This document shows positions 26,573 through 59,308 of a stretch of 64,000 nucleotides of DNA, in pieces. The stretch covers positions 186,001 through 250,000 of the forward strand of contig JAHDXL010000002.1 in NCBI GenBank assembly GCA_023382935.1, read 5' to 3'. Each line of letters starts with the position of its first letter. Position 1 is the stretch's first letter. The stretch is from Phycisphaerales bacterium. GTDB lineage: Bacteria; Planctomycetota; Phycisphaerae; Phycisphaerales; UBA1924. A model generated the notes under the pieces. The model saw only the letters and a list, made by a program, of their open reading frames with translations, made no database searches and had not been told where the DNA came from. The translations under genes were made by a program, and so were the position numbers.

Positions 26573-29041
26573 TTGGGGAAGAAGGGCGAACAACCGGCGG
26601 CCGAAACCGACGCGCCGGCGGTTCGCCCGGACCCGGTCGAGCAGGTTCGCAGCCGGTGGCGGGAGTTGTGGCAGATTCCGGCTCTGGCGGGAGCGGTGGC
26701 TCTGCTGGCGGCCGGGCTGAGTTACGGGTTGGCGACCAAGCCCGACCCGGATTTCGGGCCGGTTCTGCGCAGCGCCGAGTCGATGTTGGAGCGGGAGGAG
26801 TACCGGGAAGCCATTCGCCTGCTCAACGAGCAGGTGCTGCCCTATGTGGGGCGTCCGGAGATGAGCGGGAAGGTGGAGGCGAGGTTCCACCAGTTGATCG
26901 CCCGGGCGGTCTATGGTGGGCAGAAGGCAATTGGAATCAGGCACGAGGAGAACTACCGCAATGCGCTGACGGAAATGCGCCTGGCCGAGACGGGCGGGGC
27001 AGACCTGAACGCCCCGGACCAGTATCTGATCGCGGATTGTTACCTGGCGCTGGGCGAGCCGGACTCGGCGATGGCGCGGGTGGAGCAGATTCCGGCGGAT
27101 CGTCCGGACCTACGGCTGCGCATCGCCCGGGCGGTGATCGATCGGCACATGCGCGTCAGCCCGCCCCGCTACGAGGATGCGGGTAAGTTGCTGACGGACA
27201 TGCTGGCGTTGCCCAACCTAGCGCTGGACGACCGCGCCTGGGCTGAAGGGCAGCGGGCCCGGCTTGACATTGCGCAGGGTTTTTCGGATGCGGCGATCAA
27301 CCGGCTGCTGCGGGCCATGCCGCGGCTGACCAGCGCGTCGAAGGAATCGCTGGGAGCCCTCCACATGCTGCTGGGCGAGGCGTACCTGATGAGCATGGCC
27401 ACCGAAGAGGCGGCGCTGCAGTTGGAAATCGCCAAGGGGCTGATACCACAGGGGGGCATCGAGGAAGGGCGTTTGCAGTTGTTCCTGGCCCAGGTGGCCG
27501 AGCAAAAGGACGACTACGAGCGTGTGCGCGACCTGTACCTGCGCATTCTGGAGCGATTCCAGCCGGATGAGATTCGCGCGCGGGCGCAGTTGGGATTGGC
27601 GCTGGCCGAGGCGAGGCTGAACGATCACGTCAGCGCGCAGCAGGTGCTGGGCGACCTGGTGGCGCAAGTGAGAGCGAAGGAAGAGGCGGCTATCGGGCTG
27701 CGGAACCAGATCCTCAGCGAACTGCTCTCGCTGTTCCGCGAGCAGTTTTCGCAGGAAGGGGTGGACATCTGCTATCGCTACGCCGAACTGGCGGGCGCGT
27801 TGTATGCGATCGAGGAAGCGCCGCCCAGTGTGCTCGAGGCGCAGGCCCTGGCACACCGGGCGCTGGCCGATCGCATTGCCGAGAGCGCCCCAAAGGTCGA
27901 TGGCCCGTTGGGGCCGGAGATGGACGCGGGGACGGAGCGCGAGGTGCAACGGCACCGCATTCAGGCCGCGACCTACTTCCGTCTGCACGCTCAGGAGTTC
28001 ATCCTGACGGACTTGCGCACGTACGCCGATTCGTTGTGGGAGTCGGCCAATCTGTACGATCAGGGGGGCGACCAGCGCGAAGCGGCCAACGTGTTTCGCC
28101 AGTTTGCCGCGGATCTGGAGACCGATGCGCGCCAGCCCGAGGCTCGCTTTCGTTTGGCCCAGGCGCTGTGTTCGCAGGGGCGCTACGCCGACGCGATCAC
28201 AGTGTTCCGTTCGCTGATTGATGATCGGGACCGCGGGGTGAACCACTCGGGCATTGGCCGATTCGCCGATCTGAGCCACGTGCCACTGGCGCAGGTGTAT
28301 CTGCTCGACGGCGATCCGGGCAACGACGAGCAGGCGGAGATGCTGCTGGAGCGGGCCGTGAGCGGCGACCTGGGCGGTCCCGAGGCACAGACTTTCCTGC
28401 CTGCGCAGACCGCACTGGGCGACTTGCGTCTGAGGCGGCGGGAATTCGCCCGGGCGATCGAGAGTTACGAGCAGGTGATGGCCCGTTCGGATCAGGGGAT
28501 GGTCAAGCCGTCTCTGCAGTTCAAACTGGCCGAGGCCTATCGCCTGAATGCCCGGGCGATCGCCGAGCGATTGTCCGGCTCACTCACCGACGCCGAGCGC
28601 CGAACGCTGGAGACCACTCGGCAGGAGCACCTCCAGAAGGCACTCGGGTTCTATGACGCGGCGCGTCTGGGCCTGGAGGGCATGCAGCCGCAGAAACGTT
28701 CGGCTATGGACACGCTGTATCTCCGCAACGCTCACTTTTACCTGGGCGATTGCGCCTTCGACCTTGGCGACAATGACGGAGCGGTGCGTTACTACAACGC
28801 GGCGAGGGAACGCTATCCGAAGGATCCGGCCTCGCTGGTCGCGCTGGTGCAGATTGTGAACACGTACCTGCGGCAGGGGAATGTCTCGGCCGCGAGGGCT
28901 GCCAACGAGCGGGCCAAGTACTTCTACGAAAGCCTGCCGGAGGAAGTGTGGGACGATCCCAACCTGCCGATGTCGCGGCGGGACTGGGAGCGGTGGATCG
29001 AATCGAACTCGAAGTTGTACGCCGAGAAGCCCGGCGGGTAG
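26573..29041 (+). CDS. Membrane-anchored tetratricopeptide-repeat protein
   Basis: This 822-residue protein starts with TTG at 26573, with GGAGG at 26562-26566 giving 6 bases of spacing. Upstream in-frame sequence overlaps the RDD gene and is rejected. A single membrane helix (residues about 35-54, IPALAGAVALLAAGLSYGL) is followed by a long extracytoplasmic solenoid. TPR-like pairs are visible, such as REEYREAIRLLNEQVLP, YLIADCYLALGEPDSAMARV, RFRLAQALCSQGRYADAITVF and FYLGDCAFDLGDNDGAVRYYNAA. It probably scaffolds a periplasmic or envelope complex, with the lipoprotein and RDD protein as candidate partners. The flgN gene begins 10 bases later. Confidence 0.8.
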   Translation: MGKKGEQPAAETDAPAVRPDPVEQVRSRWRELWQIPALAGAVALLAAGLSYGLATKPDPDFGPVLRSAESMLEREEYREAIRLLNEQVLPYVGRPEMSGKVEARFHQLIARAVYGGQKAIGIRHEENYRNALTEMRLAETGGADLNAPDQYLIADCYLALGEPDSAMARVEQIPADRPDLRLRIARAVIDRHMRVSPPRYEDAGKLLTDMLALPNLALDDRAWAEGQRARLDIAQGFSDAAINRLLRAMPRLTSASKESLGALHMLLGEAYLMSMATEEAALQLEIAKGLIPQGGIEEGRLQLFLAQVAEQKDDYERVRDLYLRILERFQPDEIRARAQLGLALAEARLNDHVSAQQVLGDLVAQVRAKEEAAIGLRNQILSELLSLFREQFSQEGVDICYRYAELAGALYAIEEAPPSVLEAQALAHRALADRIAESAPKVDGPLGPEMDAGTEREVQRHRIQAATYFRLHAQEFILTDLRTYADSLWESANLYDQGGDQREAANVFRQFAADLETDARQPEARFRLAQALCSQGRYADAITVFRSLIDDRDRGVNHSGIGRFADLSHVPLAQVYLLDGDPGNDEQAEMLLERAVSGDLGGPEAQTFLPAQTALGDLRLRRREFARAIESYEQVMARSDQGMVKPSLQFKLAEAYRLNARAIAERLSGSLTDAERRTLETTRQEHLQKALGFYDAARLGLEGMQPQKRSAMDTLYLRNAHFYLGDCAFDLGDNDGAVRYYNAARERYPKDPASLVALVQIVNTYLRQGNVSAARAANERAKYFYESLPEEVWDDPNLPMSRRDWERWIESNSKLYAEKPGG

Positions 29042-29051
29042 GGAGGTCAGG

Positions 29052-29528
29052 ATGACCGGAAGTGGTCCCGGTGGAACCGGGCAGGACTGGCGTGCCGGAT
29101 TCGAGCAGGCGCTCAACACGCTGACGCAGGCATACGGGCAACTCGACGCGCTGAGTCAGCGCCAGCAGGCGCTGATCGATGCGGGCGAGATGGATCGCAT
29201 GCTCGCGCTGCTGACCGAGCGCCGCACCCTGGTCGAGCAGATCGAGCGGGCGGCACCCGGCTTTGATCGGGGACGCCGCGCATGGGAAGAGCACGCCGGC
29301 GCCCTGTCCGAGGGGCAGAACGTTGAATTGGCGCGGCGTGTGAGTGCCATCGAGCGCATGGGTGCGGTCATCGCGGAGCGCGATCGCAAGGCCGGCGAGG
29401 TGCTGGCTCGCGAGCGTGACAGGTTGACAGAAGAGATGGCCGGTCTTGGTCGCGCGAGCAGCGCGGTGTCGGCCTATCGCCCCGGCGCGGGCGAGCCGTC
29501 TCCGCGGTTTCAGGATCGGAAGGGCTGA
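29052..29528 (+). CDS. flgN: FlgN-like flagellar export chaperone
   Basis: FlgN keeps hook-associated proteins FlgK and FlgL soluble for export. This 158-residue, mostly helical protein has a coiled-coil core (LDALSQRQQALIDAGEMDRM, LLTERRTLVEQIE). It ends with Tyr...PRFQDRKG, like the C-terminal signature of FlgN homologues. The call rests on pattern and on position: it precedes the two-component genes and the flagellar operon. FlgK and FlgL themselves are not in the window. The ATG has GGGAGG 5 bases upstream, and the next gene starts 2 bases after its stop. Confidence 0.7.
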   Translation: MTGSGPGGTGQDWRAGFEQALNTLTQAYGQLDALSQRQQALIDAGEMDRMLALLTERRTLVEQIERAAPGFDRGRRAWEEHAGALSEGQNVELARRVSAIERMGAVIAERDRKAGEVLARERDRLTEEMAGLGRASSAVSAYRPGAGEPSPRFQDRKG

Positions 29529-29530
29529 GA

Positions 29531-30505
29531 ATGGACGCGATCGAGGTCAAGCCCATGCCAGGCGCGATGGATGCCGGCGAACTGGCCGAACTGGTGCACA
29601 CGTTCAACGAGTTGACCGGCAAACTCGAGTCGACGCATCGCAGCCTGCGCGATGAGGTGGAGCGTCTCAAGCGCGAGTTGGGCCAGGCCAACGCCGAGTT
29701 GGAGCGGTCCAGGCGTCTGGCGGCGTTGGGTGAAATGGCGGCCGGCATCGCGCACGAGGTACGCAACCCCCTCGGTTCGATCGGGCTCTATGCCCGAATG
29801 CTCGAAGACGACCTGCACGACCAACCCGGACAGAAGCAGACGGCCCGGAAGATTGTCGAGGCAGTGCGAGGGCTCGACGCAGTGGTCAACGACGTGCTGA
29901 CCTTCTCGCGCGAGATGAAAGTCCGCCCGAGTCTGATGACCGGCGGGGAACTGATGGAAGACGCCTTGCTGCGGGTGGCCGACCTGTTGAGCGACGAGAA
30001 CGGGCCGAGGCTGGTCCGGGGCCCCGGTATGACAGACGAAGCCGTATTGATCGAGGCCGACCGGGGGTTGATGACCCAAGCGCTGGTCAACGTGATCCGC
30101 AACGCGGTGGAGGCGACGCTCGAACAGAGTCCGACCGGCGGAGGGGCGATCGCGCTGGATGTGCGCACGAGCGCGGAATCTGCGGGTCGAGAGCACGCGG
30201 GGCCGATGGTGGTGTTCGTCATCCGGGACACCGGTCCGGGCGTGGATGCGGAGATGGTGGAGCGCATGTTCAACCCGTTCTTCACAACGAGGGCCGCGGG
30301 GACCGGGCTCGGGCTTCCCATTGTGCATCGGATCGTGGAGGCACATGGTGGGCGGGTGGTGGTGAGGAACAACGCCGATGCGGGTGAGTCCCGCGGGGCG
30401 ACGGTCGAGTTGCAGATTCCCGCCCGATTCGGGACGGACAAGACGGGCCGGGGCAGTCGGGCGTCGGCGAGAACAACTCACGTTGTGATGGAGCGAGCAG
30501 GATGA
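29531..30505 (+). CDS. Cytoplasmic sensor histidine kinase (FlrB/AtoS-like)
   Basis: This 324-residue kinase has no membrane helices or large input domain: a coiled coil (residues about 30-62) leads straight into the dimerisation helix with GIAHEVRNPLGSIGLY, where H75 is the phospho-accepting His. The HATPase domain has the N box NVIRNAVEATL, G1 DTGPGV, the F box MFNPFFTTRAAGTGLGLPIV and G2. Its architecture and place next to a sigma-54 activator match FlrB/FleS-type kinases, which respond to flagellar assembly state. It overlaps the response regulator gene by 4 bases (ATGA), so kinase and regulator are very likely cognate. Confidence 0.88.
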   Translation: MDAIEVKPMPGAMDAGELAELVHTFNELTGKLESTHRSLRDEVERLKRELGQANAELERSRRLAALGEMAAGIAHEVRNPLGSIGLYARMLEDDLHDQPGQKQTARKIVEAVRGLDAVVNDVLTFSREMKVRPSLMTGGELMEDALLRVADLLSDENGPRLVRGPGMTDEAVLIEADRGLMTQALVNVIRNAVEATLEQSPTGGGAIALDVRTSAESAGREHAGPMVVFVIRDTGPGVDAEMVERMFNPFFTTRAAGTGLGLPIVHRIVEAHGGRVVVRNNADAGESRGATVELQIPARFGTDKTGRGSRASARTTHVVMERAG

Positions 30506-31983
30506 GCACGATTCTGGTGGTCGATGACAAGGAGATGATGCGTGACAGCGTGGCGGGAACGCTGCGGCGAGCCGGGTTTGACGTGGTGGTGGCCGACAAC
30601 GCCCAGACCGCGCTGGAGCAGATTCGCCATGCGCGACCCGACATGGTCGTCAGCGACCTGAAGATGCCCGGCATGACCGGTATCGACCTGCTCGAACGCA
30701 TCCGGCAGGTCGATGAGGAACTGCCGGTAGTGTTGATGACGGCGTTCGGCTCGATCGAGACGGCCGTGGACGCCATGCGGCACGGAGCCTTCGACTATCT
30801 CACCAAGCCGTTTGAAGGCGACGAACTGATCATCACGGTCAAGCGGGCGCTCAACCACGGCAGCCTGGTGCGTGAAAACGCGCTGCTGCGATCGGCGGCC
30901 CCGGCTCCGATCGGCGTCGAAGGCCCGCACGGGCTGGATCGCGTCATCGGCACGTCGCCGGCCATGCGGCGCGTCAAGGCGCAGATCGAGGCCGTGGCCG
31001 ACTCGCAGGGCACGGTTCTCATCACGGGCGAATCAGGCTCCGGTAAGGAGGTTGTCGCCAGGGCAGTGCATGAACTCAGTTCTCGCAAGAATAATCCGTT
31101 CCTGGCGGTGAACTGTGCCGCCTTGAGTGAGTCGCTGCTGGAGAGCGAACTGTTCGGACACGAGCGTGGCGCTTTCACCGGGGCCGATCGGCTGCGGAAG
31201 GGGCGTTTCGAACTGGCCGACGGGGGCACGTTGCTGCTCGATGAAGTCTCGGAGGTTTCGCCGCAGATCCAGGCGAAGTTGCTGCGCGTACTTCAGGAGC
31301 GTGCGTTCGAGCGGGTCGGGTCGAGCATGACCATCGGCACTGACGTGCGCGTGGTGGCGACGAGCAATCGCGACCTGCCGCGGGCGGCGGCACGGGGCGA
31401 TTTCCGTCAGGACCTGTTCTTCCGCCTCAACGTGCTGCCGATTCACCTGCCGCCGCTGCGCGACCGCCTGGAAGACGTGCCGGCGCTGGCGCGGCACTTC
31501 GTGCGGCAGATCTGCCAGCGCGAGGGCATCGAGCCGGTGGAGATGGACGCTGATGCTGTGAAGTTGCTCACGGGCTATCAGTGGCCCGGCAACGTACGCG
31601 AACTTCAGAACATCTGCGAACGTGGCGTGGTGCTTTGCGGGGTGCGGCGGTCATCGGGCCAGCAGAGCAAGATCATCACGCGAGACCTGATTGAGCCGTG
31701 GCTGATTCCCACGCGCGTGCTGGCCCGGGCCACGCCGATCGCGTCCTTGCCCGGGGCCGGCGGGATCGGGTCCGCCGGGTTCGACAATGTGTTCGAGCCC
31801 AAGTTGGCGCCCGCTCCGGGACGCAAACTCGAGGAGATCGAGCGTGAAGCGATTGTCCAGACGCTTCATCGCTTCAACGGGCACCGCCAGAAGACGGCCG
31901 AGGCGTTGGGCATTGGCGTGCGGACCCTGGGGCTCAAACTCAAGAAGTGGAAGGAAGAGAACCTGGTGTCAGCCTCGCTGTAG
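30502..31983 (+). CDS. Sigma-54-dependent response regulator (FlrC/NtrC family)
   Basis: This 493-residue activator has three domains. The receiver carries phospho-acceptor D52 (VVSDLKMPGMTG) and K102. The AAA+ domain has Walker A GESGSGKE (176-183), the sigma-54-contacting GAFTGA (223-228) and a Walker B in GTLLLDEVSEV. A C-terminal Fis-type helix-turn-helix ends the protein (FNGHRQKTAEALGIGVRTLG). It activates sigma-54 RNA polymerase when phosphorylated, most likely at flagellar promoters; a good sigma-54 site lies at 31988-32002 just after it. The sigma-54 gene rpoN is not in the window. Confidence 0.92.
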   Translation: MSTILVVDDKEMMRDSVAGTLRRAGFDVVVADNAQTALEQIRHARPDMVVSDLKMPGMTGIDLLERIRQVDEELPVVLMTAFGSIETAVDAMRHGAFDYLTKPFEGDELIITVKRALNHGSLVRENALLRSAAPAPIGVEGPHGLDRVIGTSPAMRRVKAQIEAVADSQGTVLITGESGSGKEVVARAVHELSSRKNNPFLAVNCAALSESLLESELFGHERGAFTGADRLRKGRFELADGGTLLLDEVSEVSPQIQAKLLRVLQERAFERVGSSMTIGTDVRVVATSNRDLPRAAARGDFRQDLFFRLNVLPIHLPPLRDRLEDVPALARHFVRQICQREGIEPVEMDADAVKLLTGYQWPGNVRELQNICERGVVLCGVRRSSGQQSKIITRDLIEPWLIPTRVLARATPIASLPGAGGIGSAGFDNVFEPKLAPAPGRKLEEIEREAIVQTLHRFNGHRQKTAEALGIGVRTLGLKLKKWKEENLVSASL

Positions 31984-31987
31984 AGGC

Positions 31988-32002
31988 TGGCCCGCCGATT
32001 GC
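31988..32002 (+). promoter_or_regulatory. Putative sigma-54 promoter upstream of flgB
   Basis: TGGCCC-GCCGA-TTGC matches the sigma-54 consensus TGGCAC-N5-TTGC at 9 of 10 defined positions, including the invariant GG and GC exactly 10 bases apart. It lies between the sigma-54 activator gene and flgB. The expected start of transcription (about 32014) is only about 4 bases before the flgB start codon used here. Confidence 0.6.
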
Positions 32003-32017
32003 GGGAGTTGGTGCGCC

Positions 32018-32461
32018 TTGTTCATCGACCACATATCCAACGCGGGTGCGTTGCCGGCGCTTCGCGCGATGATGAGTTTCGCCTCCCAACGGCAGAAACT
32101 GATCGCGCACAACATTGCCAACTTCGAGACGCCCAACTTTCAGCCGGTGGACGTGTCGCCGCAGGCCTTTCAAGTCGCGTTGGCCGATGCCATCGAGGAA
32201 CGCCGGGCCCGGAACGGGGGGGTGCACGGCGCAGTGCAGATCGGGCGGACCGATGAGTTCGAGCAGGGGACCAATGAGTCGCTCGTGCTACGCCCGCGCA
32301 CGCCTGTTGCGGGCGTGCTCGCCCATGACCGCAACAGCAGCGACCTGGAGCGCACGATGCAGTCGCTGGTGGAGAACGCGGCGACCTTCCGCGTGGCGGC
32401 CGATCTTTATCGGGCCCGCACCGGAGTGATGAAGAAGGCCATCGGGGAGCGGGTGGCCTGA
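32018..32461 (+). CDS. flgB: Flagellar basal-body rod protein FlgB
   Basis: FlgB is a proximal rod subunit of the flagellar basal body, exported by the flagellar type III system. The 147-residue protein shows SFASQRQKLIAHNIANFETPNFQP, the conserved rod/hook N-terminal region with NIAN-TP, and a C-terminal amphipathic helix (TMQSLVENAATFRVAADLYR). No ATG fits the usual length; the TTG at 32018 with GGGAG 10 bases upstream gives a normal N-terminus. It is the first structural gene after the sigma-54 activator and is followed by flgC after 15 bases. Confidence 0.88.
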   Translation: MFIDHISNAGALPALRAMMSFASQRQKLIAHNIANFETPNFQPVDVSPQAFQVALADAIEERRARNGGVHGAVQIGRTDEFEQGTNESLVLRPRTPVAGVLAHDRNSSDLERTMQSLVENAATFRVAADLYRARTGVMKKAIGERVA

Positions 32462-32476
32462 CGCGGGGAAGGGAAC

Positions 32477-32893
32477 ATGTACGGAACACTCGACATCTCA
32501 ACCAGCGGCATGGTGGCGCAGCGCATGCGCATGGCAGCCATTTCGGCCAACATCGCCAACTCCGAGACCATCCTTGATTCGTCCGGGCAACTCAACCCGT
32601 TTCGCAAGCGTATGGTGTTCTTTGCGCCCGGCAACCCGGCGGCGACGACGGCGGCGGGGCAGGCGATGGGTGTGCATGTGGCGTCGATCGAAGCGGATGA
32701 ATCGGCGGTTCGCCCTCGCTACATGCCGTGGAGCCCGTATGCGGACGAGCGCGGGTACGTGCCCTATCCGGACATCAGCCCGGAGATCGAGCAGATTAAC
32801 GCGATGCAGGCAGCCAGGTCATATGAAGCCAACGTGGTGGCGGCCGAGACGACCAAGCAGATGATGGCACAGGCGTTGCGGTTGCTGGCGTAG
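32477..32893 (+). CDS. flgC: Flagellar basal-body rod protein FlgC
   Basis: FlgC is the second proximal rod subunit. The 138-residue length is normal. The N-terminal region DISTSGMVAQRMRMAAISANIANSET and the C-terminal YVPYPDISPEIEQINAMQAARSYEANVVAAETTKQM are typical of the family, including the NPV-like central PYPDI site. GGGAAGGGA precedes the ATG. The gene lies between flgB and fliE, the usual order. Confidence 0.93.
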   Translation: MYGTLDISTSGMVAQRMRMAAISANIANSETILDSSGQLNPFRKRMVFFAPGNPAATTAAGQAMGVHVASIEADESAVRPRYMPWSPYADERGYVPYPDISPEIEQINAMQAARSYEANVVAAETTKQMMAQALRLLA

Positions 32894-32959: not shown

Positions 32960-33268
32960 ATGAGTGACCCCATCGGACTGGTCGGAGCGGGAGGCGCGGG
33001 GCCCATCAGGCCCGCCGTCCGTCCGCCGTCCCAGGCCGGCGCGGGAGCGCCGGGCTTCAAGGAGGCCCTGCTCAAGAGCCTCGAGCAGGTCAATGCCGCC
33101 CAGCAGGAGGCCGATCGCGCGGTGGAAGACCTGGTGACCGGCAAGCGACAGGACGTGGAAGGGGTGATCCTGGCGACCGAGAAGGCCGACATGGCCTTCC
33201 AGATGCTCCAGTCGGTGCGCAACAAGGTGCTCAGCGCCTACGAAGAGATCAAGCAGGTGCGCGTGTAA
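32960..33268 (+). CDS. fliE: Flagellar hook-basal body protein FliE
   Basis: FliE joins the MS ring to the rod. The 102-residue protein has a variable Pro/Gly-rich N-terminus and a conserved C-terminal half: FKEALLKSLEQVNAAQQEAD, TGKRQDVEGVILATEKADMA, FQMLQSVRNKVLSAYEEIKQ. The ATG has GGAGAG 7 bases upstream. The following 155 bases before fliF hold no gene and no clear promoter; GC pairs there do not have the 10-base spacing of sigma-54 sites. Confidence 0.92.
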   Translation: MSDPIGLVGAGGAGPIRPAVRPPSQAGAGAPGFKEALLKSLEQVNAAQQEADRAVEDLVTGKRQDVEGVILATEKADMAFQMLQSVRNKVLSAYEEIKQVRV

Positions 33269-33423
33269 GTCCGAGTCCGGCACGAGTTGCGCGGCGCGAT
33301 TTGCGCCGAACGGCAGAATCTCCGTCGAGGGCCCGGGCATTCCAGTCCGCACGCACAAGCCTCCGAACATGACGGGCAGAGCCCGGGGTGCGGGCACGAT
33401 GCTTTGGGCATGGAGGCCCGCCG

Positions 33424-35100
33424 ATGGACAAGTTTCGAGTCGTCCTGGAGCAAATTCGGGTATACCTGGGCAAACTGACGCCCACGCAGAAGATGCTCGC
33501 TGGGAGCCTCGCGGTCATCCTTGCAATGACCCTCTTTCTCGTTTTCCAGTACTCGGCCCGCACGTCGCTGGTCGAATTGATGAGCGATGACCCCCAGACC
33601 CAGGTGGCCGGCGTCCTGCGCTCCGCTGGCTTTGACGTGCAGACCAGGGACGGGAAGATCATGGTGCCGGCTTCGCAGCGCACGGCCGCCATCGCCTCGC
33701 TGAGTGAAAGCGGGAACCTGCCATCGGACTCCACTCTGCTCTTCGACAACCTCATGGGCTCGCAGGACTGGCGCAACAGCGCCGAGAAGGATCGCCAGTT
33801 GCATATGCTGGCCCTTCAGAACGAACTGAGCCGCGTGATCGGGCAGTTCCGTGATGTCAAGAGCGCCAAGGTCATCATCCACGCGCCGGAGCAGCCCGGG
33901 CTCGGCCGCGCCTCGCAGACGCCGACCGCCTCGGTGACTATCTTCACCAGCAGCGGCGCTCCACTCACGCAGGGCACGGTGGATGCGGCGGCCCGACTCG
34001 TGGCCGGCGCCCGCGCCGGGCTTGCCGTCGCCAACGTCAACGTGATTGACGGCTCGACCGGGCGCCCGCGCAAGCCGACCGACGACGGTGACCTGGCTTC
34101 CTCCAACTACCTCGAGCACCAGTCGATCGTCGAGCGAGAGATCCGCGCCAAGATCGAGAACCTCCTGTCGTATATCCCCGGCGTCGTCGTCGCGGTGACG
34201 GCCGAGGTCGATGTGACCAAGGTCAACTCACAGATTCAGAAGAACTTGCCGAAGAACGAAGGCACGATCTCGCTGCCTCGGCGATCGCAGACCTCGACCA
34301 TGACGCAGGCGAACTCTTCGACCAGCGCCGAGCCGGGTGTGCGATCCAACGCGACGATGGACATCAATCAGTCGGGCGGCGGGCGTGGTTCGAGCGTCAA
34401 CTCAGAGGAAACCACCGACGAGTTCGAGAACGCCATCGGCACCGAAGTCAAGCAGATGGTCGATCCGCGAGGCATGGCCACGTCGCTGGCCGCGTCGGTC
34501 AACATCCCCGAGGGCTACATCGAACTGCTGCTGCGCCGCGAGAGCGGAGAAGAGGCCAGTGGTCAGTCGGTCGACCGCCAGAAACTGGCCGATCGGTTCA
34601 CGCAGATGCGTCAGCAGATCATCGCTTCCGTTCAGCCGCACCTGCGCACGCGGCTGCCGGATGGAACGATGAGCCAGGGCGTCGTCGAGGTGTCAATGGT
34701 GCCCGTTCCGATCGAGGCCGTCCACGGCGTGAGCAATGAAGCGGGCCTGCTGGGCGGATTGGGCGGGGCCTGGGCCGACACGGGCGGGCTCATTGACAAG
34801 ATCGTGCTGGGCGCGCTGTCGGCGGTCGCGCTTGGCATGATGTTCATGATGGTGCGGCGATCATCGAAGAAGATTGAACTGCCGTCGGCCGAGGAACTGG
34901 TCGGGGTGCCGCCGGCGCTTGCGGTCGATGCCGACGTGGTCGGAGAGGCCGACGAGCGCGACGCGCCAATGGAGGGCATCGAGGTCGGTTCCGACGAGAT
35001 CAAGATTCAGAAGATTCTCGAACAACTCGGCGAAATGGTGTCCCAGAATCCCGAGAGCGCAGCCACCATGCTACGGCGCTGGATCCAGGTCGAGGAGTAA
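33424..35100 (+). CDS. fliF: Flagellar MS-ring protein FliF
   Basis: FliF forms the MS ring in the inner membrane and is the assembly platform for the C ring and export gate. The 558-residue protein has an N-terminal membrane helix (about residues 23-40, SLAVILAMTLFLVFQYSA). The YscJ/FliF ring-building domain contains LQNELSRVIGQFRDVKSAKVIIHAP and VDAAARLVAGARAGL. A second helix lies near residue 465 (ALSAVALGMMFMMV), and the C-terminal FliG-binding tail ends EMVSQNPESAATMLRRWIQVEE. The ATG at 33424 is preferred to one 12 codons upstream. It leaves 6 bases before fliG. Confidence 0.94.
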   Translation: MDKFRVVLEQIRVYLGKLTPTQKMLAGSLAVILAMTLFLVFQYSARTSLVELMSDDPQTQVAGVLRSAGFDVQTRDGKIMVPASQRTAAIASLSESGNLPSDSTLLFDNLMGSQDWRNSAEKDRQLHMLALQNELSRVIGQFRDVKSAKVIIHAPEQPGLGRASQTPTASVTIFTSSGAPLTQGTVDAAARLVAGARAGLAVANVNVIDGSTGRPRKPTDDGDLASSNYLEHQSIVEREIRAKIENLLSYIPGVVVAVTAEVDVTKVNSQIQKNLPKNEGTISLPRRSQTSTMTQANSSTSAEPGVRSNATMDINQSGGGRGSSVNSEETTDEFENAIGTEVKQMVDPRGMATSLAASVNIPEGYIELLLRRESGEEASGQSVDRQKLADRFTQMRQQIIASVQPHLRTRLPDGTMSQGVVEVSMVPVPIEAVHGVSNEAGLLGGLGGAWADTGGLIDKIVLGALSAVALGMMFMMVRRSSKKIELPSAEELVGVPPALAVDADVVGEADERDAPMEGIEVGSDEIKIQKILEQLGEMVSQNPESAATMLRRWIQVEE

Positions 35101-35106
35101 GCACCC

Positions 35107-36147
35107 GTGCCCCGCAAGCCCAACGAGAAACTCCCGCCTGACCCGAGCGAACTGAGTTCACTAACCAAGGCCGCCATCATCCTGCTGGCGGTGGGGGCTG
35201 AGGCGGCCGCACAGATCCTCAAGGCGCTACCCGGTGAGGCAGTGGAGGAAGTGACGCGCGAACTGGCCAGCCTGGGGCGGGTGTCGCGCCAGTTGCAGGC
35301 GGCAGTCGTCGAAGAATTCTACCACACCGTCATCGCGTGGGGCGCCGCGGCCGAGGGCAATCTCGATTACGCCAGGACGCTCCTGCAGAGTTCGCTTGAT
35401 CCCAAGGTGGCCGAGCGTGTGCTGGGGCAGATTCAGACCCAGGTGCAGAAGACGCCGTTCAGTTTCCTGCAGCGAGCCGAGAGCGAAAACCTGCTGACGT
35501 TCATCCAGGATGAGCACCCCCAGACCATCGCGCTGATCATCTGCCATCTTTCCCACCACAAGGCGGCGGAGATCCTGGTCGGGCTTCCGATGCAGAAGCA
35601 GATCGAGGTCATCAAGCGCATCGCCAACATGGAGCAGACCAACCCCGAAGTGATTCGCGAGGTCGAGCGCGGGCTCGAGTCTCGCCTGTCCAACATGCTG
35701 ATGCAGAGCATGGAGAAGGCGGGCGGAGTGCCGACGGTGGCCGAGATTCTCAACCTGGCCGACCGCGCAACGGAGAAGTCGATCATGGAGGGACTCGAGG
35801 GCGAGGATCCCGATCTGGTCGAGCAGATTCGACGGCTGATGTTCGTGTTCGAGGACATCATGCTCGTCAATGACAAGGGCATCCAGGCGGTGCTCAAGGA
35901 GATCGAGAACGACGAACTGGCACTGGCACTCAAGACGGCCAGCCCCGAACTGCAGCAGAAGATCATGTCGAACATGTCGGAACGTGCGGCGGCCATGATC
36001 CGCGAGGACATGGAATACATGGGCCCGGTGCGCGTCAGCGATGTCGAGGCCGCCCAGCAGCGCATCGTCGACGTGGTGCGTCGACTCGAAGAGGCCGGCG
36101 AAGTTCTGATCCAGGGTCGAGGCGGCGAGAACGACATCCTGGTGTAA
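35107..36147 (+). CDS. fliG: Flagellar motor switch protein FliG
   Basis: FliG sits on the MS ring and transmits torque from the stators to the rotor. The 346-residue protein starts with GTG. The N-terminal FliF-binding part has KAAIILLAVGAEAAAQILKALP. The middle domain has EHPQTIALIICHLSHHKAAEIL, with the EHPQ motif that contacts FliM. The C-terminal torque domain has FVFEDIMLVNDKGIQAVLKEIENDELALALK, carrying the charged motor residues. A FliM partner gene is not seen in this cluster although the EHPQ site is kept. Confidence 0.94.
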   Translation: MPRKPNEKLPPDPSELSSLTKAAIILLAVGAEAAAQILKALPGEAVEEVTRELASLGRVSRQLQAAVVEEFYHTVIAWGAAAEGNLDYARTLLQSSLDPKVAERVLGQIQTQVQKTPFSFLQRAESENLLTFIQDEHPQTIALIICHLSHHKAAEILVGLPMQKQIEVIKRIANMEQTNPEVIREVERGLESRLSNMLMQSMEKAGGVPTVAEILNLADRATEKSIMEGLEGEDPDLVEQIRRLMFVFEDIMLVNDKGIQAVLKEIENDELALALKTASPELQQKIMSNMSERAAAMIREDMEYMGPVRVSDVEAAQQRIVDVVRRLEEAGEVLIQGRGGENDILV

Positions 36148-36159
36148 GGGGAGAGTGGA

Positions 36160-36867
36160 ATGGGGCTGGTTCGACGAGCCGACGCCGAGAGAATCGCACG
36201 CGACGCCATCGTACTCGATCTGGGCAGCCTCGAGCAGCAGCGTGATGCGATGGTCGCCGATGCGCGCGCGCAGGCAGAGAAGATCATCGCGAACGCCAGG
36301 CGAGAGCGTGAGACACTTGTCACGGACGCCGCCGCGGCCGGCCGCGCCATTGGCCTGGAAGAAGGCCGAAGAATAGGCATGGATCAGGGGTGCCGCGAGG
36401 GTCGCGAGCAGGCGGTCAAAGAGTTCAGGGAGGCGCTCGATGCCTTGCTGCACGCCTGGGTCGAGGCGCTCGAACAGTTCTCGGCGCGCCGCGAAGCGAT
36501 GCTGCTCGAAGCGCGGCGTGATGTCGTGCAACTGGCCTGCCAGATCGCCTCGCGTGCGACCGGGCGGGTCATCGAGGCCGATCCTTCACTCGTCGAAAGC
36601 GCGATGGCCGAGGTGCTGACGCTGGTGTCCGGGCCGACGCGTCTACGCGTCCGGCTTCACCCCGACGACGAGCCCTTGCTACGTGAAGCGCTGCCCGCCT
36701 TGCTCGAGCGCATGGAGACACGGTTCGATGTCGAACTGATCAGAGACGCCCAGTGCCCCCGCGGGTCGTGCGTGGCGATCACGGAGCGACAGGGCGTGGT
36801 CGATGCGTCAGTGGGCACGCGGCTGGAGCGCCTCACGGCCAGCATCCTCGGGGAGATGCCTGCATGA
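36160..36867 (+). CDS. fliH: Flagellar assembly protein FliH
   Basis: FliH binds and regulates the FliI ATPase of the flagellar export apparatus. The 235-residue protein has a long N-terminal helix with a GxxxG-type glycine ladder (GRAIGLEEGRRIGMDQGCREG, residues about 61-81), a FliH hallmark. The C-terminal domain resembles V/F-type ATPase stalk subunits (LEARRDVVQLACQIASRATG ... VRLHPDDEPLL ... RGSCVAITERQGVVDASV). It overlaps fliI by 4 bases (ATGA). Confidence 0.9.
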   Translation: MGLVRRADAERIARDAIVLDLGSLEQQRDAMVADARAQAEKIIANARRERETLVTDAAAAGRAIGLEEGRRIGMDQGCREGREQAVKEFREALDALLHAWVEALEQFSARREAMLLEARRDVVQLACQIASRATGRVIEADPSLVESAMAEVLTLVSGPTRLRVRLHPDDEPLLREALPALLERMETRFDVELIRDAQCPRGSCVAITERQGVVDASVGTRLERLTASILGEMPA

Positions 36868-38228
36868 GTCTGCTGGCGGGCGAAATGGAGACCGTCGCAC
36901 GCGCTCAGGCGGTGCGTGTGGAAGGCCGGGTGGCCGAACTGCGCGGTCTGTGCATTCACGTTGACGAATTGCCGGCGCCGGTGGGTTCACTGGTGTCCAT
37001 CCATTCGGCCGGTCCGCGTCCCGTCGAGGGCGAAGTGGTCGGCTTTAGCGGGCAGCGATCCATTGTCATGCCGCTGGCGCAGGCCGTTGGCTTGGGGCCC
37101 GGCGATCGCGTGCGCGTCGAGGAGCGCGAGCAGGTGGCTCGCGTGGGCGGTCCGATGCTGGGTCGCGTGGTGGACGGCCTGGGGCGCCCGATTGACGGGC
37201 GTGGTCCGATCGGCGGATGCGCACCGCGCAGGCTCAACCCCGAGCCGCGCGAAGCGCTGCGTCGCGCCCGTGTCGACCAGCCAATCCGCACCGGGGTGCG
37301 AGCCATCGACCTGATGACCCCGCTGGGCCGCGGGCAGCGCGTGGGCATCTTCGCCGGGCCGGGCGTGGGCAAGTCCACGCTGCTCGCCCAGATTGCCCGC
37401 GGCAGCGACGCCGACATCAACGTCATCGCCCTCATCGGCGAGCGAGGCCGAGAGGTGCGAGAGTTCCTGGAAGACGCGCTCGGGTCCGAAGGCCTGGCCC
37501 GTTCGGTCGTGGTGGTGGCGACCGGCGACCAGTCTCCGCTGCTGCGGCTGCGCGCGGCCAAACTTGCCTGTACCGCAGCCGAGTATTTCCGCGATCAGGG
37601 CAGGCAGGTCATGCTCATGATGGACTCCGTGACGCGCTTTGCCCACGCCCAACGACAGGTGGGCCTGTCTGCGGGCGAGCCTCCGGCCACGCGCGGGTAT
37701 ACGCCCAGCGTCTTTGCCAGCCTGGCGCTCATGCTCGAGCGAGCCGGTGGGTGCGCCGACACCGGTGGATCGGTCACGGGGTTGTACACGATTCTCGTCG
37801 AGGGCGACGACATGACCGAGCCGGTTTCCGACGCGGCGCGTGGCATTCTCGACGGGCACCTGTCCCTCAGCCGGCGGCTGGCTCACCGCTCGCACTACCC
37901 GGCCATCGACGTGCTCGACTCGATCAGCCGCGTCGGAGATATCGTGAGCGACAACGCGCACCGTTCGGCCCGGCGCACGCTGATGCGCCTGGAGGCCAAG
38001 TACCGCGAGATCGAGGATCTCGTGCAGATCGGGGCCTACGCGCGGGGGTCGAGCGTTGAGGCTGATGTCGCCATCGAAACCCACGCAGCGATCGAGTCGC
38101 TGTTGCGGCAGGGCACGGATGAGAGGGTGAAGTTTGAGGATGCGCGAGCGAGGCTGATCCGCCTGAGCGAGGACGCGGTTGCGCGGATCGAGCAGATGAA
38201 CGCCGCCCGGTCCCCAGGGAGGGCCTGA
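36864..38228 (+). CDS. fliI: Flagellum-specific ATPase FliI
   Basis: FliI is the hexameric ATPase of flagellar protein export. The 454-residue protein has Walker A GPGVGKST (in GIFAGPGVGKSTLLAQI), Walker B VMLMMDSVTRFAHAQRQVGL and the catalytic Glu region ALIGERGREVREFLED. Its SVTGLYTILVEGDDMTEPVSD block is typical of the family. The ATG overlaps the fliH stop codon. FliJ follows after 3 bases. Confidence 0.95.
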   Translation: MSLLAGEMETVARAQAVRVEGRVAELRGLCIHVDELPAPVGSLVSIHSAGPRPVEGEVVGFSGQRSIVMPLAQAVGLGPGDRVRVEEREQVARVGGPMLGRVVDGLGRPIDGRGPIGGCAPRRLNPEPREALRRARVDQPIRTGVRAIDLMTPLGRGQRVGIFAGPGVGKSTLLAQIARGSDADINVIALIGERGREVREFLEDALGSEGLARSVVVVATGDQSPLLRLRAAKLACTAAEYFRDQGRQVMLMMDSVTRFAHAQRQVGLSAGEPPATRGYTPSVFASLALMLERAGGCADTGGSVTGLYTILVEGDDMTEPVSDAARGILDGHLSLSRRLAHRSHYPAIDVLDSISRVGDIVSDNAHRSARRTLMRLEAKYREIEDLVQIGAYARGSSVEADVAIETHAAIESLLRQGTDERVKFEDARARLIRLSEDAVARIEQMNAARSPGRA

Positions 38229-38231
38229 GAA

Positions 38232-38699
38232 ATGCGAGGATTCCGCTTCAGACTCGATCCGGTGCTCGAACAACGTCGGCGCATCGAGGAGCAGCAGCAA
38301 CTGGCGGTGGCCGAGGTGGAGCGCGAGCGTCTGGCACTGGAGGAACGCATCCGGGCATATGCGCGGGCGATCGCGCAGGAGCAGGACGACCTGCGCCGGC
38401 AGTTGACGCTGGGGGGCGACCTGCGGGCTGCAAGGCTTCAGGCCAACGCCTCGCTCGACTTGACCAACAAGGCCAACCGGGCTGTGCTCGAACTGGCTGG
38501 TGTGCACAAGCGGCTGGATGCCGCCCGGATCCGCCTGCTGGAGGCGATGACGCGGCGCAAGGCGATGGAAGTGTTGCGAGACCGGGCCGAACAGGCGTAT
38601 CGGGAGGAACAGAAGCGCCGCGCGGCGGCCGAACTGGACGAACTGGTGGTGATGCGGCACGGGCGAGCCGGGACCGCTGACCTGGAGAGCAAGCCATGA
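38232..38699 (+). CDS. fliJ: Flagellar export protein FliJ
   Basis: FliJ is the small coiled-coil stalk and chaperone-escort factor of the export ATPase. The 155-residue protein is almost entirely helical, begins RGFRFRLDPVLEQRRRIEE as in most FliJ, and ends with QAYREEQKRRAAAELDEL. Sequence is variable in this family; identity rests on this start, the coiled coil and its place directly after fliI. It overlaps the next gene by 4 bases (ATGA). Confidence 0.88.
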   Translation: MRGFRFRLDPVLEQRRRIEEQQQLAVAEVERERLALEERIRAYARAIAQEQDDLRRQLTLGGDLRAARLQANASLDLTNKANRAVLELAGVHKRLDAARIRLLEAMTRRKAMEVLRDRAEQAYREEQKRRAAAELDELVVMRHGRAGTADLESKP

Positions 38700-39388
38700 A
38701 GCGCATCTGGACGGTGCTCTCGGTGCTGGCATTGGCCAACCTGGTGGCTCTGGGTGGATTCACCGGCTGGCTGGCCCAGACAGGACGTCTCAGCATCGAA
38801 CGTCTGCGCCAGGTCCGCGAGATGTTCAGCCAGACCGTGGCGATGGAGCGGGCTCGCCTGGACGCCGAGGCCAAGGCCGCTGCCGAAGCCGAGAAGGCAA
38901 AATCGAAGGAACTCAGCGGGACGGCACGCTCGGCCTCAGAACTGGTGGCGATGCGGCTCAATGCCACCGAGGTCGATCTGCAGCGCATCGAGCGACTCCG
39001 CCGCGAAGTCGAGGACCTGCAGCGCATGTTGCAACGCGACCAGTCGTCGCTCGATGAACAGGTGGCTTCCTTTCACAAGGAGCGCGACGCCTTCAACGCC
39101 ATGCGCGAGCGCATGCGCGCCATCGAGGGCGGCGACCAGTTCCGCAAATCGCTGGCGGTGCTCGAGGGTGTCAAGCCGGCGGAGGCAAAAGACATGCTCG
39201 ATACCCTGCTCAAGGGAGGCGGCAAGGAGCAGGTGGTTTCCTATCTCAACGCCATGGACGAGCGGGCCCGGTCCAAGGTGCTCACCGAGTTCATCAAGTC
39301 CGGTCAGCCTGACGTGGCAGCCGAGTTGCTGGAATCTCTCCGCACGCGGGGGCTCGAAACCCCCGCGGACGGAGACTCGACTGGATGA
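38696..39388 (+). CDS. MotE-like flagellar protein (MgtE-N-like domain)
   Basis: This 230-residue protein has one N-terminal membrane helix (residues 5-27) and a long coiled coil (about 35-145). A small helical C-terminal domain has LAVLEGVKPAEAKDMLDTLL and VVSYLNAMDERARSKVLTEF. This resembles the MgtE N-terminal/MotE domain, which in other bacteria is found between fliJ and fliK and helps FliG or stator assembly and export chaperoning. The architecture (TM plus coiled coil plus MgtE-N-like) and gene position support MotE. It overlaps fliK by 4 bases. Confidence 0.78.
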   Translation: MKRIWTVLSVLALANLVALGGFTGWLAQTGRLSIERLRQVREMFSQTVAMERARLDAEAKAAAEAEKAKSKELSGTARSASELVAMRLNATEVDLQRIERLRREVEDLQRMLQRDQSSLDEQVASFHKERDAFNAMRERMRAIEGGDQFRKSLAVLEGVKPAEAKDMLDTLLKGGGKEQVVSYLNAMDERARSKVLTEFIKSGQPDVAAELLESLRTRGLETPADGDSTG

Positions 39389-40542
39389 TCGAACAGGCCA
39401 CCGGCTCGAACACCGCAAGAACCGAACTGGATTCGGCCCGCGCGTCAAGCATGACGCCGCAGGCTACTCAGGACTTCGCGCAAGTGCTTGCAGGGCTGTT
39501 CAGCGAACGGGTGCATCCCGCGCCCGGCATTGCGCAGGTCGTGCGCGACGAACTGAAGAACGCAAACAAGGTCAGTCTGTCGGCCATCGCCACCGACGAA
39601 ATGACCAGCCCCTCGCAGCCTCAGGCGACGCCACTCGCGGCTCGCGGCGGGTCCGGGCAGCCCCGGTCTGAACCGCCGGCGCCCGATCAAGCGCCGCCCG
39701 TCATTAGGCAGAACGCTTCGCCCGAGCAGGGTGCTGAGCGAAGCGCTCAGGCGCCCGCGCGATCGGCCGGCGCCGGCGAGCCGCCGGCGCAAACTGCGCC
39801 GATCGACGCGCAAGCACGACCGACACCGGCGCAAAGACCGCAACAGGTCCAGACGCCAGCGGTCTCCTTTCCCCCGGCGGCCAGCAGATCATCGACTTCT
39901 TCGGCGGCGGGAGAAGCCGGGCAGGGTTCCATGCGCATGGACGCGATGGCGGGCCTTGCGCGATCGGGGTTGCGTGCGGACCAGCGTCCGGCGCCCGCAA
40001 CCCTAAAGAACCCCTCGCAGCGTATGTTCCACGTCGAGAAGCAGCAACTCCCCTCCCAGGTGTCGCGTTCGCTGGCCGGCATCATCGCTCGGGGGGGCGG
40101 CAAACTCATACTGCGACTGTCGCCGCAGGCGCTGGGTGATGTGCGTGTGGATGTTCAGGTTCGTGAGGGATCCGCCAGCGCGCTTTTCCAGGCCGAGCAC
40201 GAATCGGCACGCGACTTGCTGAAGAGCAATCTTGCCACGCTTCGCCACGCATTGGAAATCCGTGGCGTGCGCGTCGAACGTCTGGAAGTGGTCGGCCCGC
40301 ACTCGGAGAGCACGGCGCCGGCTTCGGAGAGCGCACGGATCGACGGAAGGGAGTCCGGCGGTTCCGGTCAACACCAGCCCTGGCACGGTGGGAGCACCGG
40401 ACCAGAGCAACGGGCGCCCGCGGAGGCGGGCGGAGGCAAACGGTTTGAGCCCGAGGCGGAGCCCGGCTCGGCGACAGGCCCATGCGTGATGGTGCAACGC
40501 AGCATCGAGGGAGCCGTGCTCCGGCTCGACGCCATCGCCTGA
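39385..40542 (+). CDS. fliK: Flagellar hook-length control protein FliK
   Basis: FliK measures hook length and switches export from hook to filament proteins. The 385-residue protein has a long Ala/Pro/Gln-rich, low-complexity middle as in other FliK. A conserved Flg_hook C-terminal domain follows (about residues 235-310: GKLILRLSPQALGDVRVDVQ, LFQAEHESARDLLKSNLATL, LEIRGVRVERLEV). The final 70 residues are again low complexity. Identity rests on the C-terminal domain and on the place before flgD. Confidence 0.9.
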   Translation: MIEQATGSNTARTELDSARASSMTPQATQDFAQVLAGLFSERVHPAPGIAQVVRDELKNANKVSLSAIATDEMTSPSQPQATPLAARGGSGQPRSEPPAPDQAPPVIRQNASPEQGAERSAQAPARSAGAGEPPAQTAPIDAQARPTPAQRPQQVQTPAVSFPPAASRSSTSSAAGEAGQGSMRMDAMAGLARSGLRADQRPAPATLKNPSQRMFHVEKQQLPSQVSRSLAGIIARGGGKLILRLSPQALGDVRVDVQVREGSASALFQAEHESARDLLKSNLATLRHALEIRGVRVERLEVVGPHSESTAPASESARIDGRESGGSGQHQPWHGGSTGPEQRAPAEAGGGKRFEPEAEPGSATGPCVMVQRSIEGAVLRLDAIA

Positions 40543-40557
40543 CAACGAGGAACGTGC

Positions 40558-40998
40558 ATGTCCACGATCGATGCCCTGGGCGCGACCAGCGCCAACGCGG
40601 CCGGCTCGACCAGCGCCTTCTCCGCGCTGACCAGCAAGCAGTTCGTCGAGATCATGTTCACCGAACTGACCAACCAGGATCCCTTCGAGCCCAACGACTC
40701 GCAGGCCATGCTCGATCAACTCTCAAGCCTGCGCTCCATCGAGTCTGACATCCAGTTGGGTGAACGCCTGGACAAGGTGTCGCAGCGCACCGAGTTCGCG
40801 GCTGCTTCGCAGATGATCGGCAAACTCGTCAGCGGCGTCTCGGAGACCTCGAGCAGGGTCGTGGACGTGGTGTTCTCGGTAAGCCAGACCGACAAGGGCC
40901 CGGTGCTCAACCTGATGAACGGCCAGCGCGTTCGCATGGACAACCTGATCGAAGTCACCACCCCGCAACTGGGAGAGGTCGATGACGATACCGAGTGA
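40558..40998 (+). CDS. flgD: Flagellar hook capping protein FlgD
   Basis: FlgD caps the growing hook and guides FlgE polymerisation. The 146-residue protein has the conserved N-terminal part: FVEIMFTELTNQDPFEPNDS and DQLSSLRSIESDIQLGERL. It is shorter than FlgD of enterics (about 230) because the central Tudor/FnIII part is missing, as in many non-enteric FlgD. The ATG has GAGGAACG 4-8 bases upstream. It overlaps the next gene by 17 bases. Confidence 0.9.
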   Translation: MSTIDALGATSANAAGSTSAFSALTSKQFVEIMFTELTNQDPFEPNDSQAMLDQLSSLRSIESDIQLGERLDKVSQRTEFAAASQMIGKLVSGVSETSSRVVDVVFSVSQTDKGPVLNLMNGQRVRMDNLIEVTTPQLGEVDDDTE

Positions 40999-41464
40999 TT
41001 CGGTCACGCTTCTGCGCATGCTCGGGTCGGGCGTGGTGCCCACCGAGCGTGTTCCATCCGGCGCCGATCCGCGATCGCTTGCCTTCGCGGCTCTTCTTGA
41101 ACAGGCCCGGGCCGGCGCCGTGCGCAGCGGGCTGACCGTCAGCGTCGATCCGGACCTGCGCCTCGAACTCGACCACGACAAGATCGAGCAACTCTCGCAG
41201 ATTGCTGATCTGGCACAGGCGCAGGGGCTTGATCGCGTGCTCGTGATTGACGGTTCCCATCGCCTCGTGCTCGATGTCGAACGCCGGGTCATCGTGGGTA
41301 AGGCCGAAGGGGCCGGGCAACTCATGTCCGGCTTTGACGCCGTATACGAACTTTCTTCGACGCTTTCGTCCGAGACAGCCTCGTCCGGCATGCCGGATGC
41401 GGGCGTCTCAAGCCGCAGGCTGCTCGACTTGCTCACCTCCGGCAGGCAACCGCAGGTTTCCTGA
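40982..41464 (+). CDS. Flagellar operon protein between flgD and flgE (TIGR02530-like)
   Basis: This 160-residue protein lies between the cap and hook genes, the place of the TIGR02530 flagellar operon protein in Gram-positive and other bacteria. The central part follows the same pattern: FAALLEQARAG, then LTVSVDPDLRLELDHDKIEQ, AQAQGLDRVLVIDGSHRLVL and VERRVIVG. The similarity is in pattern rather than strong identity. The role is unknown; it may help hook export or assembly. It starts inside flgD with a 17-base overlap. Confidence 0.6.
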   Translation: MTIPSDSVTLLRMLGSGVVPTERVPSGADPRSLAFAALLEQARAGAVRSGLTVSVDPDLRLELDHDKIEQLSQIADLAQAQGLDRVLVIDGSHRLVLDVERRVIVGKAEGAGQLMSGFDAVYELSSTLSSETASSGMPDAGVSSRRLLDLLTSGRQPQVS

Positions 41465-41509
41465 GCACCCTCTCCGTGTCTGAATCCCGGTTCCATTCAA
41501 GGAGCGTGC

Positions 41510-52899: not shown

Positions 52900-53060
52900 A
52901 CTTGTGGCTTCGGAGATCGGGGCTTCTGCCCAATTGAACAAAATCTCACCAACGAAGTGCAAAGGAATCCTCTATACTGGATTGTCAAGCCAGGATGGCT
53001 GAACAAATGGACCGCGCCTGCTCTTCTGCGGGCGCCAGCCAAAGGGTCAAGGAGAGACCG

Positions 53061-53927
53061 ATGGCAGCAACGGATACGTCAACCAGGTCCGGGACGCGCA
53101 ATCTCGGGCGCCACGTCGCCCGCAGAGCCGAACAAACCTCTTTCGGCACGCCTTTCGACCAACGCCCCCTCGACGAGATCTGGCGCCTCTATCGCCAGTC
53201 TCCGACCGAGGACATGCGTAACTACCTCGTCCAGCGCTTCCTTCATCTCGTCCGCTACAACGCCGAACGCATCTACGCCCGCCTTCCCGATGAGGTCGAC
53301 ATCGAAGACCTGATGTCCGCCGGGCTCTTCGGGCTCATGGCCGCCATCGACGCCTACGACCCCGACCGCGAGGTCAAGTTCGAGACCTACTCGGCCACGC
53401 GCATCCGCGGCGCCATTCTGGACGAACTCCGCTCCATGGACTGGGTGCCCCGCCTCGTCCGCCATCGCACGGCCAAGGTCGAGCAGACCCGCATGCGCAT
53501 CCAGATGGAGACCGGCGCCAAACCCTCTCTCCACGACGTGGCCAGCCGGCTGAACCTCGATCCGGCCGAGTTCGAGAAGTACGAGCGCGACTCCAAGCAG
53601 GTCAGCATGACCAGCATCACCCGCAAGTGTTTCCCCACCGACGGTTCCCGCGACCTCCGCGAGATCGACGTCATCAAGGACGAATCCCAGGCCAACCCCG
53701 TCAGCGAACTCCAGCAGCGCGACCTCAAGGATCTCATCACCAAGGGGCTCAGCCGCGCCGAACGCCTCATCGTCATTCTCTACTACTACGAGGGCATGAC
53801 CATGAAAGAAATCGGCGCCACCCTCGACCTCTCGGAGTCACGCGTCAGCCAGATGCATTCCTCCATCCTCCAGCGCCTCAAGGCCCAGATGCAGCACCGC
53901 ATGCGCGAACTCGAACCCGTTGAGTGA
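53061..53927 (+). CDS. fliA: RNA polymerase sigma factor FliA/WhiG (sigma-28)
   Basis: FliA directs transcription of late flagellar genes. The 288-residue protein lacks region 1. Region 2 contains EDLMSAGLFGLMAAIDAYDPDREVKFETYSATRIRGAILDELRS. Region 3 follows around VRHRTAKVEQTRMRIQ, and region 4 has LSRAERLIVILYYYEGMTMKEIGATLDLSESRVSQMHSSIL. The ATG at 53061 has AAGGAGA 5-6 bases upstream, better than an in-frame ATG 22 codons earlier. FlgM, its usual anti-sigma factor, is not in the window. A strong terminator follows. Confidence 0.94.
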   Translation: MAATDTSTRSGTRNLGRHVARRAEQTSFGTPFDQRPLDEIWRLYRQSPTEDMRNYLVQRFLHLVRYNAERIYARLPDEVDIEDLMSAGLFGLMAAIDAYDPDREVKFETYSATRIRGAILDELRSMDWVPRLVRHRTAKVEQTRMRIQMETGAKPSLHDVASRLNLDPAEFEKYERDSKQVSMTSITRKCFPTDGSRDLREIDVIKDESQANPVSELQQRDLKDLITKGLSRAERLIVILYYYEGMTMKEIGATLDLSESRVSQMHSSILQRLKAQMQHRMRELEPVE

Positions 53928-59067: not shown

Positions 59068-59308
59068 CGATCGAGTCTCCTTCATTGCCTCGGCGTGAGC
59101 CTTCCCTGGCTTCTCGGTGTCCCACAAGCGAATCGGCCACTTCGGGCGGTCGGTTCAGAGCAGCCCGCCCCGACTCCCCGATTTCAACGGGCAGGAGCCG
59201 GGTTCAACTGCCGCCCACCCAAGCCGCAAGCCTCGTGCCAGCGATTCGGGTTCCAGGATCGAGAGTCCACTGGCCGGTTGGAAACCAGGCCTGCCGCAGC
59301 GCAATGAA

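Follow-up and report, generated by a model that had tools for sequence, protein, structure and literature searches.

Apparent shift to a near-leaderless layout at a flagellar sigma-54 promoter within a Phycisphaerales-like family

The window analyzed here is a stretch of 64,000 nt from contig JAHDXL010000002.1 (positions 186,001 to 250,000; assembly GCA_023382935.1), and all coordinates given below are positions within it. On the forward strand, a histidine kinase gene (29531 to 30505; HisKA and HATPase_c by Pfam) overlaps with its 3' end the start of a gene for a sigma-54 activator (30502 to 31983), in which Pfam recognizes a receiver domain, an AAA+ domain and a Fis-type helix-turn-helix (HTH); the GAFTGA motif was read in the protein, and the kinase is its probable partner. 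Downstream on the same strand follow flgB with a TTG start (32018 to 32461), flgC (32477 to 32893), fliE (32960 to 33268), fliF (33388 to 35100), and fliG (35107 to 36147), and then fliH, fliI, fliJ, fliK, flgD, flgE and two further open reading frames, all co-oriented (36160 to 43264). The cluster also includes motA, motB and export genes downstream, as well as a forward-strand gene for a sigma-70-type factor (52995 to 53927; regions 2 and 4 and a weak region 3) that is probably FliA, a name we infer. FlgC scored above the cut-off of TIGR01395. No Pfam family matched FlgB, and NCBIfam models and homology were therefore used in its place; it matched TIGR01396 with an E value of 1.6e-13, below the cut-off, and its N terminus is conserved across the family. 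A search of 28800 to 32600 for terminator-like and sigma-70-like sites was negative.

The gap between the activator gene and flgB is 34 nt long. Four bases after the activator stop codon (31981 to 31983) begins the forward-strand element at 31988 to 32002, TGGCCCGCCGATTGC, which matches TGGCAC-N5-TTGC in 9 of 10 bases and has its GG (31989 to 31990) and GC (32001 to 32002) 10 bases apart. The initial annotation had reported TGGCCC-N5-TTGC with this score and spacing directly behind the gene of a GAFTGA activator, and the window sequence confirms both points, the protein reading ...HERGAFTGADR.... By convention the final C of TTGC is counted as -12, so that +1 falls at offset 11 when the base after TTGC is offset 0; the transcription start is thus predicted at 32014 (plus or minus 1 to 2 nt), with a leader of about 4 nt before the flgB start codon at 32018, in agreement with the distance of about 4 bases given in the initial annotation. 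The Shine-Dalgarno (SD)-like GGGAG at 32003 to 32007 (forward strand) lies upstream of this predicted +1 and would therefore be present on read-through RNA only. Motif positions given for Caulobacter (PMC4287350) lend this numbering loose support: the RpoN motifs of spmX and of its antisense start are assigned to -26 and -24, respectively, but RpoN motifs in general to -35 to -25.

Within the window, the bare pattern shows no enrichment (55 matches with up to two mismatches against 71 expected in shuffles), and because the motif occurs at or below its chance number in this GC-rich DNA, the case for a promoter rests on comparison. Eight sites in the window have at most one mismatch, and two of them are perfect, one at 32865 (end of flgC) and one at 59226 on the minus strand. 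The perfect site at 32865 to 32879 spells the codons M-A-Q-A-L-R that end flgC and was taken as coding rather than as a promoter; pattern matches to TGGCAC-N5-TTGC near the same place in at least five other genomes are probably coding-driven as well. Throughout the genome, allowing A or C at position 5, we counted 26 sites versus 13 for the reversed pattern, a modest excess. The search for further sites that the initial annotation had suggested thus yielded more of them, and that for rpoN was also positive, the genome containing both rpoN and the AAA+ activator with GAFTGA. Some of the sites in this genome precede rpoN, and others precede genes that inspection by eye suggests to be flagellin, groEL, dnaK and hsp20. 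Those before dnaK, groEL and hsp20 were recorded as L160 (C10:104474), L159 (C9:107031) and L002 (C1:244048), while further sigma-54-like sites precede, at a distance of about 120 nt, rpoN and a gene taken by eye to be recR (L150; C4:391484 and C4:392085). Another locus (L174) has a site before rpoN at a similar distance, and among 11 rpoN upstream regions, four carry a site with at most one mismatch, with mixed spacing.

For the comparison we sampled 150 genomes of the bacterial family to which the genome of the window belongs, a Phycisphaerales-like family. FlgB was found in 144 of them, and the DNA upstream of flgB was collected for 143 loci (30, 100 and 13; one truncated locus, G116, was left out). 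Among the first 130 loci, 109 have a site with at most one mismatch within 120 nt upstream of flgB. The controls gave a mean of 0.9 and a maximum of 3 loci over 20 rounds of dinucleotide shuffling, 2 with the reversed pattern, and 0 when the initial 123 nt of flgB itself were scanned. When GG and GC were required, 120 of all 143 loci have a site with at most one mismatch and 134 with at most two, leaving nine loci without an acceptable site. The TT before GC is retained at 99% in the family profile (in which GG and GC are required), and a G directly follows TTGC in 82% of the sites. A gene with the HTH motif of the activator ends upstream of flgB in 133 of 143 loci, a count made by text motif, so that the remaining 10 may still have the gene. 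The rpoN gene was present in 145 of the 150 genomes, including all 107 with a completeness of 90% or more and a contamination of 5% or less. Position and conservation make 31988 to 32002 credible as a promoter, and rpoN, the further sites and the element found family-wide before flgB support the earlier proposal that sigma-54 would drive the structural flagellar genes. One record titled Cyanobacteria, RHKP01000003.1 (L140), encodes a FlgB 87% identical to that of the window, and its title looks wrong.

The distance from the element to the start codon is conserved too. Taking as the start the first in-frame start codon at an offset of at least 10, we found it at offsets 10 to 20 in 117 of 134 loci (12 to 18 in 109) and at longer spacing in the other 17; the start codons of the 117 near loci are ATG (80), GTG (34) and TTG (3). 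In ten of the 134 loci this count passed over a further in-frame start codon with an offset below 10, and the choice among tied sites, which concerned one locus, leaves the counts unchanged. The distance to the homology-anchored start, for which no start codon has to be chosen, peaks at 12 to 16, with 23 of 134 loci at 6 to 11. Counted in any frame, ATG occurs 17 times over the 12 positions of offsets 0 to 11 versus 84 times over the seven positions of offsets 12 to 18, while GTG shows peaks at 12 and 13 but no contrast in total (35 versus 34). As ATG is rare before offset 12 and common from there on, and +1 corresponds to offset 11, start codons begin approximately where the transcript should begin. 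Of 122 loci with a site, 106 have a predicted leader of 0 to 9 nt. By genus (67 genera, 130 loci), near-leaderless genomes occur in 61 and form the majority in 57. The nearly leaderless flgB mRNA predicted in the initial annotation is thus consistent with a short spacing that is conserved in the family along with the element.

Signals for translation give a more mixed picture. Inside the predicted leader, no SD 4-mer was found in any of the 106 loci, an absence mostly forced by length, as 62 of these leaders are shorter than 4 nt and cannot hold a 4-mer. Upstream of the predicted start, at a spacing of 3 to 12 nt, an SD-like 4-mer is present in 48 of the 106 near-leaderless loci versus 17 in shuffles; the corresponding figures are 27/29 for dnaK, 28/28 for flagellin (28 of 30 loci, L186 and L204 being left out), 12/20 for flgC (a start was found in only 20 of 30 loci) and 11/16 for flgB with longer leaders. 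Part of the SD-like signal before flgB may be the G-rich flank of the promoter itself. Read-through RNA would carry these motifs and may be translated as well, and it is they that weigh most heavily against an exclusively leaderless reading. Over its first 45 nt, the predicted mRNA folds more weakly, with a mean of -8.9 kcal/mol, than either shuffled sequence (-10.4) or sequence from inside flgB (-11.3). In the window, flgB starts with TTG and not with AUG. Non-AUG starts are described as inefficient on leaderless mRNA in Escherichia coli, and the leaderless mRNAs reported for Sinorhizobium have AUG only, although AUG was also part of their definition there (PMC3616915).

The explanation that we favor is that 31988 to 32002 would be the -24/-12 element of a sigma-54 promoter switching on a flgB-flgC-fliE-fliF-fliG operon, most likely activated by the kinase and the GAFTGA response regulator encoded just upstream. 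Transcription would start near 32014, leaving 4 nt in front of the flgB TTG, and a sigma-54 mRNA with a leader of about 0 to 9 nt would have no room for an SD sequence, so that flgB would be translated in a leaderless fashion. Selection appears to keep this geometry in most of the family. We regard this explanation as likely as a whole, and the promoter itself, of the ordinary sigma-54 kind but in a conserved, unusual near-leaderless layout, is very probably real. A coincidental match to TGGCCC-N5-TTGC in a GC-rich genome would suit the chance-level counts in the window taken alone, but it is extremely improbable given the accumulation of sites at one place before flgB, in 109 of 130 loci against three at most in any shuffle. 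Nor do we give much credit to a promoter simply squeezed into a short intergenic gap, with the short leader as an unselected by-product. The gap in the window (34 nt) and the median stop-to-site distance (23 nt over 125 loci) are indeed small, but across these loci the distance from stop to site varies widely, its 5th and 95th percentiles being 3 and 124 nt, while that from site to start holds at 13 to 17 nt in the middle half. Intergenic length accordingly tracks the former (correlation of 0.94) more than the latter (0.33); both are part-whole correlations, and it is the contrast between them that counts rather than their values.

A more serious competitor, to which we nevertheless assign a clearly lower probability than to the explanation above, accepts the sigma-54 promoter and supposes that a large part of FlgB is translated from read-through RNA, which would begin before the kinase and activator genes and carry GGGAG as its SD sequence, the sigma-54 RNA serving mainly for flgC onward. 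The overlap of the kinase and activator genes, the terminator-like site that was searched for and not found between the activator gene and flgB, and the excess of SD-like motifs at a workable spacing (48 of 106 loci versus 17) all speak for it. Translation of read-through RNA alone, however, needs neither the avoidance of offsets 0 to 11 by ATG nor its accumulation from offset 12. The SD spacing of flgB is also spread over 3 to 12 nt while that of flagellin is tight, but this argument is weak, since dnaK spacing is fairly spread as well (4 to 11 nt).

The promoter with near-leaderless start that we prefer has partial counterparts in known systems. Sigma-54-dependent flagellar genes form a class with the kinase-regulator pairs FlgS/FlgR in Campylobacter, FlrB/FlrC in Vibrio and FleS/FleR in Pseudomonas, and the pair found here is likened to FlgS/FlgR and FlrB/FlrC. 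The locus shares with this class a -24/-12 element before flgB, a kinase with a GAFTGA regulator, rpoN and a rod-hook operon. It differs from the class in that the promoter abuts the start codon and in that the activator stays under the cut-offs of the FlgR (295.7 versus 750) and FlbD (345.1 versus 750) models, as it does for each of the best 25 of 121 matching NCBIfam models. No enhancer was found in a synonymous-conservation scan of five relatives, in which the activator gene never rose above permutation. In flgB, codons 73 to 85 (about 32234 to 32272) have a synonymous identity above the permutation limit in the five relatives, and this stretch could be a downstream enhancer or chance.

Published work touches on several of these elements. 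According to the predictions of a study of Planctomycetota (PMC12316311), sigma-54 would control flagellar genes in Planctomycetia as well as GroEL, DnaK and IbpA in the phylum, with a smaller share in Phycisphaerae. Sigma-54 control of such flagellar genes has thus already been predicted in print, while the near-leaderless geometry was not found there, the terms "leaderless" and "start codon" being absent from the main text of that article. In Deinococcus-Thermus, a -10 region adjacent to the open reading frame is described as giving leaderless expression (PMC12340547). The likeness to our case would lie in a core promoter element directly before the open reading frame and a leaderless mRNA (predicted here), and the difference in that the element there is a sigma-70-type -10 serving many genes, whereas here it would be the sigma-54 -12 of activator-controlled flagellar operons. 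For Planctomycetes, an analysis that covers one genome describes few genes with SD sequences and biases fitting leaderless or S1-mediated starts (PMC5397173). Leaderless mRNAs are reported as common in Leptospira, where sigma-54 promoters are also present and where motility genes are underrepresented among leaderless mRNAs at 37 degrees (PMC5243855). A search mostly at the title and abstract level found no published report of a sigma-54 promoter abutting a start codon.

For dnaK of the window's family (loci L210 to L239, found by an N-terminal motif, one of the 30 being without upstream DNA), 26 of 29 loci carry a sigma-54-like site within 300 nt (at most one mismatch; counted without a shuffle control), and these sites lie 29 to 125 nt before the start. 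Flagellin was dropped as a comparator for leader length, having a sigma-54 site (at most one mismatch) in only 4 of 30 loci. In the flagellin loci (L180 to L209), GGAGGAT occurs in the last 20 nt before the ATG in 29 of 30 cases (not in L186), mostly within CACGGAGGATTGC; it overlies the SD and resembles a CsrA target motif. For flgI, a start and a site with no more than one mismatch occur together in 17 of 30 loci, in 11 of them at offsets 10 to 17, and for flgK 5 of 30 have a site, three of them near, both counts being made without a shuffle control; flgI of the window's own genome (offset 32, TTCGC) is not near-leaderless. Inspection by eye of 30 loci with the near-ATG pattern gave 11 flagellar genes (seven flgB, two flgI, one flgK and one flgG-like), two hsp20 and 17 others, so that near spacing to an ATG is no proof by itself. 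An hsp20-like gene in two sister genomes (L002/L163 and L309) has an in-frame ATG 12 nt past a sigma-54 site, 22 codons before the next ATG, which in the window's own genome is SD-led.

Outside the family, the comparison was extended to the order and the phylum. The FlgB model, which also reaches related rod proteins, has hits in 197 of 251 genomes of the order, and 63 loci of other families were examined for sites with at most one mismatch within 260 nt, with starts picked by rule and hence less certain. Sites were found in 19 of 23 loci of family f3 (offsets 29 to 156, median 47), 5 of 7 of f2 (median 41), 5 of 6 of f83 (median 53) and the single locus of f82 (offset 66), the flgB sites of f2, f3 and f83 together lying 29 to 156 nt from the start. 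Family f81 has sites in only 3 of 26 loci, including one at offset 13 (L417) and one after the start (L444). Across the phylum, the model has hits in 109 of 199 genomes. Of 50 loci examined there (four of them also among the 63 of the order; counted without a shuffle control), 24 have a site with at most one mismatch no farther away than about 200 nt, and most of these sites are tens of bases from the start; near spacing is sporadic in this set (e.g., L250 and L266). From these counts, sigma-54 control of flgB seems to be ancient in the phylum, and its near-leaderless form seems to have been derived within the window's family.

What is apparent here, in one or more genomes from each of 61 of the 67 genera sampled, is an activator-controlled sigma-54 promoter seemingly fused to a start codon, with leadered contrasts available in dnaK of the same family and in flgB of related families. 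If so, the origin and use of leaderless translation would become testable in one operon. We tentatively suggest, as a possibility we hold to be well short of probable, that the sigma-54 flagellar operons of the family form a translational class of their own, in which the mRNA begins at the start codon and initiation is leaderless, while chaperone mRNAs such as that of dnaK keep longer leaders with SD sequences. If this were true, one sigma factor would feed two modes of ribosome recruitment, and the cell could tune flagellar assembly against stress via the state of its ribosomes.
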